Positions 24,538-60,916 of a stretch of 64,000 nucleotides of DNA are shown here, piece after piece. The notes below the pieces were generated by a model. It did no database searches. It was not told the origin of the DNA and saw only the letters and a list, made by a program, of their open reading frames with translations. A program made the translations under genes and the position numbers. Source of the DNA: Clostridiales bacterium. GTDB lineage: Bacteria; Bacillota; Clostridia; Oscillospirales; Oscillospiraceae. Numbering within the stretch: position 1 is the stretch's first letter; the number at the start of each line of letters is the position of its first letter. The stretch covers positions 1 through 64,000 of the forward strand of contig JALFLH010000013.1 in NCBI GenBank assembly GCA_022774865.1. The letters are read 5' to 3'.

Positions 24538-24762
24538 GCTTACAGGAAATTGCAGATGCAGCCGAAGGAGTAACGCTCTCAGGTGTCCGGGTTCCGGATG
24601 GGGACTGTAAGCCGACAGAACTTTGGAGAAACCCATTGAGTTGGGTGCCGAAGGTGCAAAGCGTGAACGCGCTAATCTCTCAGGCAAAAGGACAAAGCTG
24701 ATTTTTCGGAAAAGATTTGTTTTTTGAGCGGATTGTGTGATTTCACGCAATCCGCATTTTTT
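24538..24762 (+). promoter_or_regulatory. Tandem glycine riboswitch with intrinsic terminator
   Basis: Aptamer 1 (24538-24612) closes with GCTTACAG/CTGTAAGC and holds GCCGAAGGAGTAA and CTCTCAGG. Aptamer 2 (24621-24697) closes with CTTTG/CAAAG and holds GGAGA, GCCGAAGGTGCAAA and CTCTCAGGCAAAAGGACA. The expression platform is a terminator (24728-24735 with 24748-24755, then A and six T). The gene controlled encodes an alanine/glycine symporter. Whether glycine turns it on or off cannot be read with certainty. Confidence 0.94.
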
Positions 24763-39600: not shown

Positions 39601-39612
39601 ACGCCTTGTTTT

Positions 39613-39645
39613 CTGGGAGCCGCGCGTCCGGCTCCCAGGTTTTTC
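39613..39645 (+). terminator. Terminator of the xdhABC operon
   Basis: A 9-bp stem (39613-39621 with 39630-39638) is followed by GTTTTTC. Confidence 0.87.
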
Positions 39646-39674
39646 TTGATTTACCCCACCGGATATGGTACAAT
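39646..39674 (+). promoter_or_regulatory. Promoter of the guanine riboswitch transcript
   Basis: TTGATT (39646-39651) and TACAAT (39669-39674), spacer 17. It starts immediately after the upstream terminator. Confidence 0.7.
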
Positions 39675-39691
39675 CCGAATACAGACAAATA

Positions 39692-39803
39692 TGCTCATAT
39701 AAGTACGCTGTGAATGGTGCGTATGTTTCTACGGGCCGCCGAAAGGCTCGCTATGAGTATCTGAGCCCAGCCTTTCCGTGGGAGCAGATACTCTTTTTCT
39801 TTT
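39692..39803 (+). promoter_or_regulatory. Guanine-class purine riboswitch with terminator, predicted ON switch
   Basis: P1 pairs TGCTCATA (39692-39699) with TATGAGTA (39752-39759). P2 is TACGC/GCGTA, J2/3 is GTTTCTAC, and P3 is CGGGCC/GGCTCG with loop GCCGAAA. The specificity base before TATGAG is C, as in guanine/hypoxanthine binders. The terminator arm GAGTATCTG (39755-39763) overlaps the 3' side of P1 and pairs with CAGATACTC (39785-39793), followed by TTTTT. Ligand binding should therefore block termination. The P2 loop (GAATGG) is shorter than usual. Confidence 0.9.
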
Positions 39804-39839
39804 CCCGGAAGGACTCCATCTGAAAGAGGTGCTTATGTT

Positions 39840-41108
39840 ATGAAAACAACCATTCTCAAAGGAACCGTCGTCTCCGCTCCCGCGCTGGGTAAACTGGACA
39901 TCACCGAAAACGGCTATCTGGTGGCTGTGGACGGCATCATTCAGGGCGTGTATGAGACACTGCCGCCTCAATTTGCCGGTTGCGCCGTGGAGGACTGCGG
40001 CAGCGATCTGATTTTGCAGTCCTTCGCCGATATGCACCTGCACGCGCCCCAGTATCCCATGCTGGGCATGGGCATGGATCTGCCGCTGCTCAAATGGCTG
40101 GATACCTACACCTTCCCCACCGAGGCAAAATTTGCCGACACCGGCCTTGCCCGGCAGGTCTACCGCCAGTTGGCGGCGGAGCTTGCCAAAAACGGAACAA
40201 CCCGGGTGTGTATGTTCTCGTCGCTGCACCGGGAGGCGACCCTGATCCTCATGGAAGAGCTGGAAAGCGCCGGCATCACAGGCTACGTGGGCAAGGTCAA
40301 CATGGATCGCAATGGCGGCGTGAACCTGCAGGAAACCACCGAAGAATCCATCTGGGAAACCCGCCGATGGCTGGACGAATGCGGGGATTTTCCTCACATC
40401 AAGCCCATCATCACCCCCCGGTTCACCCCCTCGTGCACCGACGAGCTCATGAAAGCGCTGGGTGAAATTGCCGGAGCGCAGAACCTCCCCATTCAGTCCC
40501 ACCTGTCCGAGAACACCGGCGAGATTGCCTGGGTTTCCGAGCTGCACCCCGAATGCGCCCAATATTGGGAAACCTACGCGAAATACGGTCTGTGGAACAG
40601 CCGAACCCTGATGGCGCACTGCGTCTGGTCGGACGAGCGGGAGCGCCGCGCCATCCGCGACGCGGGTGTCTGGGTTGTCCACTGCGCCGACTCCAACCAG
40701 AATATCCTCTCCGGCGTGGCGCCCATCTGGGTCATGCTGAACGAGGGGGTTCGGGTCACGCTGGGCAGCGATATTGCGGGCGGCGACCATCTTTCCATGT
40801 TTGATGTGGCCGCCGCCTCCATCCGGGCATCCAAGGCGCGTTCCATTCTGGACAACTGGCAGACCGATTTTCTGACCGTGGCCGAGGGCTGGTATCTGGC
40901 CACCTCCGCCGGAGCGGAATTCTTCGGAGAGAAGCCGGGCTTCGCCCCCGGCAATCCCCTCCACGCCATCGTCCTGCGGGATGACGCGCTGCCCGCTGTC
41001 CGGAAACTGACCGCCCGGGAGCGGTTTGAGCGGTGTGTCTACCGCCGGCAGGAAGGGGCTCTCCGCGCCGTCTGGAGCGCCGGCCGGAAAATCTACGCCG
41101 CTGAATAA
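39840..41108 (+). CDS. guaD: Guanine deaminase
   Basis: Zinc amidohydrolase that converts guanine to xanthine and ammonia, feeding the xanthine-oxidising enzymes. The 422-residue protein shows the hallmark FADMHLHAPQYPMLGMGMD with zinc ligands His66 and His68, KVNMDRNGGVNLQETTEES, IITPRFTPSCTDELM, QSHLSENTGEIAWV, a late MAHCVWSD and the catalytic Asp in TLGSDIAGGDHLSM. AAAGAGG lies before the ATG. A guanine-class riboswitch with overlapping terminator controls it, which fits substrate induction. It stands between xdhABC and the selenium genes. Confidence 0.95.
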   Translation: MKTTILKGTVVSAPALGKLDITENGYLVAVDGIIQGVYETLPPQFAGCAVEDCGSDLILQSFADMHLHAPQYPMLGMGMDLPLLKWLDTYTFPTEAKFADTGLARQVYRQLAAELAKNGTTRVCMFSSLHREATLILMEELESAGITGYVGKVNMDRNGGVNLQETTEESIWETRRWLDECGDFPHIKPIITPRFTPSCTDELMKALGEIAGAQNLPIQSHLSENTGEIAWVSELHPECAQYWETYAKYGLWNSRTLMAHCVWSDERERRAIRDAGVWVVHCADSNQNILSGVAPIWVMLNEGVRVTLGSDIAGGDHLSMFDVAAASIRASKARSILDNWQTDFLTVAEGWYLATSAGAEFFGEKPGFAPGNPLHAIVLRDDALPAVRKLTARERFERCVYRRQEGALRAVWSAGRKIYAAE

Positions 41109-41114
41109 ACGTTT

Positions 41115-41142
41115 GGAGCCTGCGGCACACGCCGCAGGCTCC
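41115..41142 (+). terminator. Bidirectional terminator between guaD and the LysR gene
   Basis: A perfect 12-bp stem (41115-41126 with 41131-41142), loop ACAC, followed by ATTTATTCC on the plus strand. The genes converge here. Confidence 0.8.
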
Positions 41143-41144
41143 AT

Positions 41145-42056
41145 TTATTCCGATTCCTGCTCCGCAGCATAATGCTGCACCACGAATTCCATAAACTCCC
41201 GGAGGCGGCGATCCCCCGCCCGCTCCGCCCGGTAGACCAGAAACAGCCTGCGGGTATTGGCCCATTCTGGCAGCTCGAATGCCAGCAGGCGCTTTTCCAG
41301 CAGAAAATTCCGCGCTGCCCGGGCCGAGACAATGGAGATGCCCAGGCCACCGGCCACCAGATTCTTGATGGCCTCCGGGTCGTTGATCCGGGCGCAGACC
41401 TGAAGCCGCTCCTCCGGAATACCCGCCCGCTCCAGAAACCGGTCCACGCTCTTTTTACTGCCGCTGCCCTTCTCCCGGAGAATTACCGGCTCCTGCAGCA
41501 GAATATCCACCGGAGAAGCCGCCCGCGCCTGCAGCTCCAGAAAATGGGCGGTCACCGGGGTAATCAACACCATCCGGTCCCGGCAGAAGCTGCGGCAGAC
41601 CAGATTTTCCTGCTGGCAGGGCATTCCGGTCAGCCCCACATCGAACACCCCGTCCGTCAAGCCGTCAATCACGCCCTGACTGTCGCTCTGGTGTATGACA
41701 AAAAACGTATTGGGGTGAAGCCTGCCGAACGCGGGCAGGATCTCCGGCAGCACATAGGCGGAAGGAATTGTGGACGCGCCCAGATGGATGATCCGTTTGG
41801 CGCCGCCTGCGCTTTCCTGAAGCATCCGGTCCCGGAGCTGCAGAATGCTGACCGCATCGTCGTAGACCTTTTTGCCCGCGGCTGTGACCTCAATGCTTTT
41901 GGTGGTGCGCAGAATCAGGCGTGTATTCAGTTCCTCCTCCAGCGTCCGGATATGGGTGCTGACCGTGGGCTGGGAAATGTACAGTTCCTCTGCCGCCCGG
42001 GTGAAGCTGCCCAGCCGCACCACCGCCGCGAAGGATTCCAACTGCTTAATTTCCAT
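41145..42056 (-). CDS. LysR-family regulator of the selenium-metabolism type
   Basis: A 303-residue LysR-type transcription factor. The winged helix is at residues 1-60 (LESFAAVVRLGSFTRAAEEL and the YISQPTVSTHIRTLEEELN recognition region), followed by a periplasmic-binding-like effector domain (IIHLGASTIPSAYVLPEILP, GLTGMPCQQENLV, ILREKGSGSKKSVD). LysR proteins of this type occur next to selenium-use genes. Here it overlaps a cysteine desulfurase-like gene by 11 bases and faces yedE-selD across a 146-base gap. The effector is unknown; a selenium or sulfur metabolite is plausible. Confidence 0.88.
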   Translation of the reverse strand: MEIKQLESFAAVVRLGSFTRAAEELYISQPTVSTHIRTLEEELNTRLILRTTKSIEVTAAGKKVYDDAVSILQLRDRMLQESAGGAKRIIHLGASTIPSAYVLPEILPAFGRLHPNTFFVIHQSDSQGVIDGLTDGVFDVGLTGMPCQQENLVCRSFCRDRMVLITPVTAHFLELQARAASPVDILLQEPVILREKGSGSKKSVDRFLERAGIPEERLQVCARINDPEAIKNLVAGGLGISIVSARAARNFLLEKRLLAFELPEWANTRRLFLVYRAERAGDRRLREFMEFVVQHYAAEQESE

Positions 42057-59395: not shown

Positions 59396-60739
59396 TTAGT
59401 ATACCCGGTGGTTCAGCTCGCCCCAGAGCTTCCTGCTCTGCTCCAGAACCCAGGCGTTGATGGCGTCCTCATCGATGCTGACGAATTCCCGGTCTTTATA
59501 GAGCACCTTACCGTTGATGATGGTGGTGCGGCAATTCCTGCCCATCATACCGAAGAGCATATGGCCGTCGATATTTTCCGCGGACAGCGGGGTAAAGGGC
59601 TTGTAGTCCATGACGATCACGTCGGCGGCAGCGCCGGGCTTCAGCACGCCCAGGGGCTTGCGGCAGTATTTGGCCATCATTCTGGCGTTATTCTGGAAGA
59701 GCATGGTGGTGCCCTCGCACCAGCCCACGTTGGGCAGACCCGCGTTGTGGCGCTGGATGGTCAGAAAAACCTTCAGGCTTTCCAGCATATCGTGGGTGTA
59801 GGCGTCGGTGCCCATGCACACATGAATTCCCTTCGCCATCATCTTCAGCACGGGGGCGCAGCCCACAGCGTTGCCCATGTTGGATTCCGGATTGTTGACC
59901 ACCATGGTGCCGGTCTCTTTCACGATGTCCAGTTCCTTGTCGGTCAGGTGGATGCAGTGACCCAGCATGGTTTTCTCACCCAGAATGCCGCCGATGCGCT
60001 GCAGGCGCTCGATGGGCAGACAGTGGTGCTGATTGAGGGAATCATACACGTCGTTTAATCCCTCGGCCACGTGGATATGGAATCCGGTGAGGCCGTTGTT
60101 GGCCTCCACCATTTTTTCAAAGGTCTTGTCGGAGATGGTGAACAGGGCATGGCCGCCGAACATGGCGGTGATCATGTCGTCCTGCTGCTGCGCGGCCCAT
60201 CTGGAGAATTCCACATTCTCCTGAATGGCCTGTTCACATTTTTCCATGCCGTCCCGCTCGGACACCTCGTAGCACAGGTTCGCCCGGATACCCAGCTCCT
60301 GACACACATCCTTGATGGCAAACAGGGAACCGGGAATTTCGCGGAAGCTGGCGTGGTGATCCACGATGGTGGTCACACCGTCGCGGATACAGTCGAGAAT
60401 GGTGGCGTAGGCGCAGGCACGGGTGCCGTCCAGGGTCAGATGGCGGTCAATGTTCCACCAGGTTCCGTCCAGCACCTCCAGAAAATTGGTGGGATTGTTG
60501 CCCTCGATGGCAAGGCCACGGGCCAGTCCCGAATAGATGTGGGTGTGGGCGTTGATGAGACCGGGCATAATCAGCCCGCCTCTGGCGTCCACATATTCGG
60601 CGTTGGGGTATTTTGCCCGCAGCGCGGCCTGTGTACCGACCTCACGAATGGCTTCCCCATCAATTACGACCGCGCCATCCTCCAGATAGGGCATTGCCGG
60701 GTCCCGGGTGAAGAGTTTTCCGTTTCCTACCAGCAGCAT
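59396..60739 (-). CDS. ssnA: SsnA-type aminohydrolase
   Basis: A 447-residue zinc amidohydrolase of the ATZ/TRZ deaminase group, in the SsnA subfamily found with selenium-dependent purine genes. Metal ligands: GLINAHTHIYSGLARG near residue 65, the HIHVAEG His near 225, MLGHCIHL near 268, and the Asp in CMGTDAYTHDMLESLK near 300. A Trp-rich WWNIDRHL segment near 93 is characteristic. AAGGAGG precedes the ATG. It is the first gene of the ssnA-ygfK-XDH-ferredoxin operon, divergent from the YheO-like regulator. Its substrate is probably a purine or a ring-opened derivative (inference). Confidence 0.93.
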   Translation of the reverse strand: MLLVGNGKLFTRDPAMPYLEDGAVVIDGEAIREVGTQAALRAKYPNAEYVDARGGLIMPGLINAHTHIYSGLARGLAIEGNNPTNFLEVLDGTWWNIDRHLTLDGTRACAYATILDCIRDGVTTIVDHHASFREIPGSLFAIKDVCQELGIRANLCYEVSERDGMEKCEQAIQENVEFSRWAAQQQDDMITAMFGGHALFTISDKTFEKMVEANNGLTGFHIHVAEGLNDVYDSLNQHHCLPIERLQRIGGILGEKTMLGHCIHLTDKELDIVKETGTMVVNNPESNMGNAVGCAPVLKMMAKGIHVCMGTDAYTHDMLESLKVFLTIQRHNAGLPNVGWCEGTTMLFQNNARMMAKYCRKPLGVLKPGAAADVIVMDYKPFTPLSAENIDGHMLFGMMGRNCRTTIINGKVLYKDREFVSIDEDAINAWVLEQSRKLWGELNHRVY

Positions 60740-60916
60740 AAGAATTGCCTCCTTTGGTTGAAAATAATATTCTCAGCCGGCCCGTGCGCGAAGCACTTCG
60801 TTGCAGCCCGCAGCTTTAACAAATATTTTGTTATTCTATCAGAATTTTTGTTGATATTTCCGTCTTTCATGATATAATGAACGCAGTATGCAGATAACCG
60901 AAAGGGGTTCCCGCCA
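60740..60916. promoter_or_regulatory. Divergent ssnA / regulator control region
   Basis: It contains a promoter for the regulator gene (TTGATA 60851-60856, TATAAT 60873-60878, spacer 16), a minus-strand TAGAAT (60833-60838) for ssnA with no good -35, and a perfect 17-bp palindrome (60817-60833) directly downstream of that -10. A further TTTTTGTTGA element (about 60845-60854) overlaps the regulator -35. The weak ssnA -35 suggests activator dependence. Confidence 0.65.
60817..60833. repeat. 17-bp perfect palindrome TAACAAA-N3-TTTGTTA
   Basis: Seven-base arms around TAT, between ssnA and the divergent regulator gene. It is the best single example of the recurring AACAAA-type element and the likely binding site of the neighbouring regulator. 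Confidence 0.55.

Follow-up and report, generated by a model that had tools for sequence, protein, structure and literature searches.

A guanine-I riboswitch with putative ON wiring upstream of guanine deaminase in the Oscillospiraceae and their relatives

Results

The guaD locus

The window analysed here is the whole 64,000-nucleotide stretch of contig JALFLH010000013.1 (positions 1 to 64,000) from a member of the Oscillospiraceae (assembly GCA_022774865.1). It carries guaD, preceded by a riboswitch leader whose features are collected in Table 1. By homology, the product is a guanine deaminase. TIGR02967 gave 300 bits, under its curated cut-off of 375 yet the best-scoring model, and the closest solved relatives are 2i9u (1.1e-93), 2uz9 (1e-65) and 6oh9 (1.4e-61). 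Residues H66, H68, Q71, R194, F195, H221, E224, H260 and D311 are invariant among relatives, and we take them to be the metal and substrate residues, by the roles that they have in human GDA.

Upstream lies an xdhABC operon, with XdhA, XdhB and XdhC each over its curated cut-off, that ends in its own terminator. Since a further terminator closes guaD, the gene forms a monocistronic unit. A consensus scan returned two promoter sites in 2.1 kb against 0.7 expected, and the site just before the aptamer is likely to be the guaD promoter. A selenium-metabolism LysR regulator (41145-42056) adjoins guaD, and the window also holds a glycine riboswitch at 24613-24705 (+) and an ssnA RNA motif at 60779-60808 (-), the latter directly upstream of an SsnA-like aminohydrolase gene (59396-60739). 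A search of five other sampled genomes of the same genus for a close guaD found none, with one weak match (E 1e-5), and the gene may have been gained in the window's genome.

Table 1. Features of the guaD leader and its surroundings in the window
Feature	Position	Strand	Basis
Terminator closing the upstream xdhABC operon	39612-39639	+	terminator scan
Promoter-like site, TTGATT-17 nt-TACAAT, TG before the -10	39646-39674	+	consensus scan
P1 5' strand UGCUCAUA	39692-39699	+	Rfam alignment and pairing check
J1-2 UAA, U22 first	39700-39702	+	Rfam alignment
P2 hairpin	39703-39724	+	Rfam alignment and pairing check
Loop L2 GUGAAUGG	39710-39717	+	Rfam alignment
J2-3 GUUUCUAC, carrying pocket U47 and U51	39725-39732	+	Rfam alignment
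P3 hairpin, GCCGAAA in the loop	39733-39749	+	Rfam alignment and folding
Position 73, G	39750	+	Rfam alignment
C74 equivalent, guanine-specifying base	39751	+	Rfam alignment
P1 3' strand (P1') UAUGAGUA, in common with the terminator from 39755	39752-39759	+	pairing and folding
Terminator 5' arm GAGUAUCUG	39755-39763	+	pairing and folding
Terminator 3' arm CAGAUACUC	39785-39793	+	pairing and folding
U-tract UUUUUCUUUU (U5 C U4)	39794-39803	+	sequence
guaD, guanine deaminase, 422 aa	39840-41108	+	TIGR02967 (E 2.5e-89) and solved relatives
Bidirectional terminator 3' of guaD	41114-41143		terminator scan

The aptamer and its class

The Rfam Purine model (RF00167) matched 39675-39773 (+), flanks included, with a modest score of 41.7 bits against a gathering score of 37, and a genome-wide Rfam scan placed the genome's one purine aptamer here. 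All eight P1 pairs are standard (8/8), and the aptamer folded alone is of mildly unusual stability (z -1.8). An earlier note on this DNA had described the P2 loop as shorter than usual; this was mistaken, for L2 has 8 nt against 7 in the Rfam consensus, with about 7-10 in relatives. Both the GG of L2 and the CC of L3, the bases of a predicted loop-loop contact, are kept.

In the Rfam alignment the window aptamer has the sequence marks of guanine-I, namely C74, U22, U47, U51 and a J2-3 free of insertions. Three other classes were considered and rejected. Guanine-II needs a one-nucleotide insertion in J2-3, which here is of consensus length; xanthine-II needs U51G with insertions in J2-3 and J3-1, where the window keeps U51 and has no insertion; and the adenine class needs a U at position 74.

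The pocket is strictly conserved among close guaD leaders. The UAUA at J1-2, U47, U51 and C74 was present in 60/60 of them, U22 likewise in 60/60, and it is on C74 together with U22, U47 and U51 in these 60 leaders that the assignment of guanine as ligand rests. J2-3 reads GUUUCUAC in 48/60 and GUCUCUAC in the other 12. At position 73, where the window's G departs from consensus, G is found in 42 of the 60, while every one of the family's 32 importer and xpt (xanthine phosphoribosyltransferase) aptamers has A.

The terminator and its overlap with P1

The terminator stem has nine Watson-Crick pairs out of nine, and its hairpin has a folding energy of -20.4 kcal/mol (z -5.1), a value equalled by none of 200 shuffles. 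The P1 3' strand and the terminator 5' arm, proposed in the earlier note to share bases, overlap exactly, over the five bases 39755-39759. Folding with and without a P1 constraint, which the note had put forward as a check, made the two structures mutually exclusive and left no terminator once P1 was forced: the sequence downstream then forms just a hairpin with 3+4 pairs, which stops well short of the U-tract. A terminator independent of P1 was sought by folding in the window leader and none was found (E_indep 0 for L032). The leader has the layout of a pbuE-like transcriptional ON platform, with a sole terminator whose 5' arm overlaps the P1 3' strand. As no terminator can form without the shared P1' bases, a ligand-stabilised P1 should permit read-through into guaD.

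Over the whole leader the terminator state folds at -40.2 kcal/mol and the P1-forced state at -34.1, 6.1 less stable, in equilibrium folding that ignores tertiary contacts. A ligand bonus of 9-12 kcal/mol, the value that we assumed for nanomolar binding, would reverse this balance. When the transcript was folded as it grew, the probability of P1 was 0.92-0.97 for 3' ends at 39759-39763, and that of the terminator was 0.995 at 39793.

Wiring compared across genes

We compared leaders by asking whether a terminator of -10 kcal/mol or better can form from the sequence downstream of P1' alone. Such independent terminators were present in 0/20 close guaD leaders, 7/8 xpt leaders and 23/24 leaders of importer lipoproteins, the last having been identified from sequence by the analyst, with only some matching a named model. 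The importer and xpt riboswitches of the window's family mostly have the OFF layout, which is that of an independent terminator. These energies replaced a score of pairing probability for the 8 bases that precede the U-tract, which was rejected because the upper terminator stem survives and bound and free states were not cleanly separated. A gain of at least 5 kcal/mol from the 3' half of the aptamer was seen in 19/20 close guaD leaders, 13/14 distant ones and 36/40 of a named guaD set that overlaps the family set in part; 6/24 importer and 1/8 xpt controls also showed it, each with an independent terminator too. Removal of P1' lowered the terminator energy of close guaD leaders by about 9-17 kcal/mol.

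In 45/45 aligned leaders, at least 8 of the 9 positions of the P1'-derived arm are paired with the terminator 3' arm. The mean was 8.87, against 8.29 for the best of 1000 re-dealt sets, and the P1 helix was slightly above its re-dealt sets (7.27 against a maximum of 7.22), although in both statistics the leaders are related sequences and hence not independent samples. Shuffled tails reached 8 pairs in 13% of trials. Because MAFFT misplaced the terminator 3' arm of some leaders, column-based pair counts were left out. Relatives differ at position 5 of P1', which is A, G or U (e.g., L032, L037 and L052), and both the P1 5' strand and the terminator arm change to match it, a three-way covariation that is expected if P1' pairs with each in turn.

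Spread of the switch

In 300 genomes of the window's family, 89 carried a purine aptamer. An Rfam-detected aptamer preceded 35/96 family guaD-type genes on the same strand at a distance of at most 500 nt, where chance would give about 0.004. Of the 29 close guaD homologues (at least 58% identity), 20 had an Rfam aptamer upstream and an Rfam scan found no match for the other nine, so the switch is not universal; two of those nine, L041 and L043, have an aptamer visible by eye. A scan of GTDB genomes added 80 named guaD relatives, about half with an aptamer. The search of homologous leaders that the earlier note had called for bore out its proposal, with ON-type wiring conserved in about 60 leaders, and the same predicted ON wiring is conserved across dozens of gut bacteria.

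Several leaders depart from this pattern. L166 and L167 (GuaD identity 74%) retain the terminator and part of P3 (at about 2350-2470) over a degraded aptamer core, and would represent either a decayed switch or a changed sensor. In L024/L051 (G029:C21 14858-17848), an ON-wired aptamer stands 1.7 kb upstream of guaD with a 366 aa gene between them. A guanine-type aptamer also accompanies guaD in L192, L193 and L194, from MAGs titled Alphaproteobacteria/Rhodospirillales, and in L191 and L201, titled Spirochaetales. Rfam placed L201 over its cut-off and L191 just under it, and left L192 and L194 undetected. Going by these MAG titles, guaD and its switch lie beyond the Bacillota here, and the two may have been transferred jointly.

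Other ON-type leaders

In distant guaD homologues (about 41-45% identity) the terminator 5' arm begins in the P3 5' strand, and the terminator takes up P3 and P1' together with a hairpin further downstream. It is abolished when P1 is enforced (e.g., from -50.7 to -35.7 kcal/mol in L076), and in these folding models the distant group is ON by a different construction, one that consumes both P3 and P1. Tandem aptamers lie 5' of guaD in G078, G200 and G269, and L076, L077 and L089 each have two full guanine aptamer-terminator units in tandem; where folded (both units of L076 and L077), these are predicted to be ON. Tandem units would sharpen or threshold the response.

Adenine-type aptamers (U74) stand upstream of adenine deaminase in L018 (1501-1650), L012 and L031. 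The L018 terminator is long and perfect and consumes P3 and P1, and this leader is predicted to be wired ON. The adenine-deaminase leaders L145 and L146 have C74 and independent terminators, so the correlation between base 74 and gene is imperfect. In L185 (2280-2500, a Bacilli MAG) a guaD aptamer, undetected by Rfam at E 0.05, has no terminator; its P1' AGUUCU can pair with GGAACU beside the ribosome-binding site, which suggests a translational ON version.

ON-type terminators also accompany aptamers at L141 (101-198), L136 (1477-1573, -), L152, L154 and L133 (about 1440-1600, -). The genes that follow encode a MATE-like transporter, a Se-dependent xanthine dehydrogenase, FAD-dependent oxidoreductases and a small membrane protein. 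The last of these follows L133, which belongs to the window's own genus and whose aptamer was seen by eye only.

Discussion

We consider it very probable that a guanine-I aptamer controls guaD by transcription antitermination and that the switch is ON with guanine. The identity of the aptamer, the mutually exclusive pairing, its conservation and covariation, and the identity of the gene by homology are established here. The aptamer itself appears ordinary and its polarity uncommon, and the comparative support is strong.

We propose the following mechanism, of which we infer that guanine binds, that the switch is kinetic, in which direction the cell regulates the gene and that the enzyme is active. 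RNA polymerase would first make the three-way-junction aptamer. With guanine bound, P1 would persist, its 3' strand would be unavailable, the terminator would be blocked and guaD would be transcribed. With no guanine, the terminator strand would invade P1 and transcription would stop at the U-tract. Guanine would thus induce the deaminase that converts it into xanthine, and so supply the xanthine dehydrogenase whose genes lie just upstream.

The closest models for such a device are adenine riboswitches. In that of B. subtilis pbuE, the P1 3' strand doubles as the terminator 5' arm and ligand leads to read-through, and in the add riboswitch the substrate base induces a deaminase, with Vibrio add acting on translation. 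Both are adenine-specific (U74), and pbuE encodes an exporter. The window leader shares the pbuE layout of P1 3' strand and terminator arm, but differs by C74 and by the type of gene; by analogy with add, it would likewise be a substrate-induced deaminase switch, although add is specific for adenine and, in Vibrio, translational.

With guanine-I (RF00167) at large, the window switch has in common the aptamer fold, the junction bases, C74 and U22/U47/U51. Switches of that class are usually OFF and stand before genes for synthesis, salvage or uptake, whereas the window switch is apparently ON, precedes a degradative enzyme and has G73. Guanine riboswitches are described as mostly lowering expression (PMC9295807), and the four of C. 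difficile are all OFF (PMC11477304). ON wiring has been predicted for guanine-II, xanthine-II and a guanosine-sensing variant (PMC9295807). Guanine-II, found with Paenibacillus phosphoribosyltransferase (PRT) genes, is also a guanine sensor that is predicted to be ON, but unlike the window switch it carries an insertion in J2-3, along with other xanthine-II-like changes, and controls salvage phosphoribosyltransferases (PMC9295807). Xanthine-II resembles the window switch in its purine three-way junction, ON wiring and purine-degradation genes, and differs in U51G, junction insertions and a xanthine ligand (PMC9295807). Some genes associated with xanthine-I (the NMT1 motif) are guanine-deaminase-like amidohydrolases, as here, but its fold is unrelated, and it is a translational OFF switch that senses product instead of substrate (PMC7373994). 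Tandem guanine riboswitches have also been counted (PMC9481103). In the open-access literature we found no prior report of a guanine or purine riboswitch controlling guanine deaminase (guaD) or purine degradation.

The alternative that deserves most attention, though we think it unlikely, keeps the ON switch as proposed and makes xanthine, hypoxanthine or an oxidised purine its physiological ligand. With xdhABC adjoining, the next metabolite is xanthine, and the consensus base at position 73 is replaced by G. The selectivity of guanine-I pockets over hypoxanthine and xanthine is only about 10-fold, and ON-wired xanthine-II variants have been described (PMC9295807). However, every mark of xanthine-II (U51G and the J2-3 and J3-1 insertions) is absent from the window aptamer, the four pocket bases are intact in all 60 leaders, and the enzyme under control is expected to act on guanine.

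We give far less credence to an OFF switch, in which an unseen antiterminator would make the bound state the terminating one. It is the usual mode of guanine riboswitches and the layout of the family's importers and xpt, but the window terminator cannot form without the P1' bases, forced P1 leaves just the short hairpin described above, and it would make little sense for a substrate to repress its own catabolic enzyme. Equally improbable is a relic aptamer in a leader that is now a constitutive attenuator or unregulated: L166 and L167, with their terminators retained beside degraded cores, are what such decay would look like, whereas in the window all pocket bases are intact, P1 is fully paired, and P1' is doubly constrained by pairing across relatives. 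The ON reading, advanced in the earlier note, is thus the one supported by the comparison of sequences, in which the need of the sole terminator for P1' bases, the conservation, the covariation, the opposite wiring of importer and xpt leaders and the ON platform of different structure in distant guaD homologues agree.

More tentatively, and with less than even confidence, we suggest that the guanine-I aptamer is a general-purpose sensor in the Oscillospiraceae and their relatives, whose polarity follows the role of the gene. It would be ON where guanine is removed (guaD and, as single cases, a MATE exporter and a Se-dependent xanthine dehydrogenase) and OFF where guanine is imported or salvaged. 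ON control of guaD may then have arisen more than once via unrelated platforms, and G73 of the close guaD group may retune the pocket.

The guaD switch would supply the missing guanine counterpart to adenine-induced ON control, and would be a case of a single RNA sensor whose polarity, in one and the same bacterial family, is reversed according to what the gene is for. The leaders described here would form a set of natural guanine ON platforms that lend themselves to testing, of which two types are transcriptional and one is possibly translational, and the switch would offer a direct regulatory route into the purine breakdown of gut bacteria.
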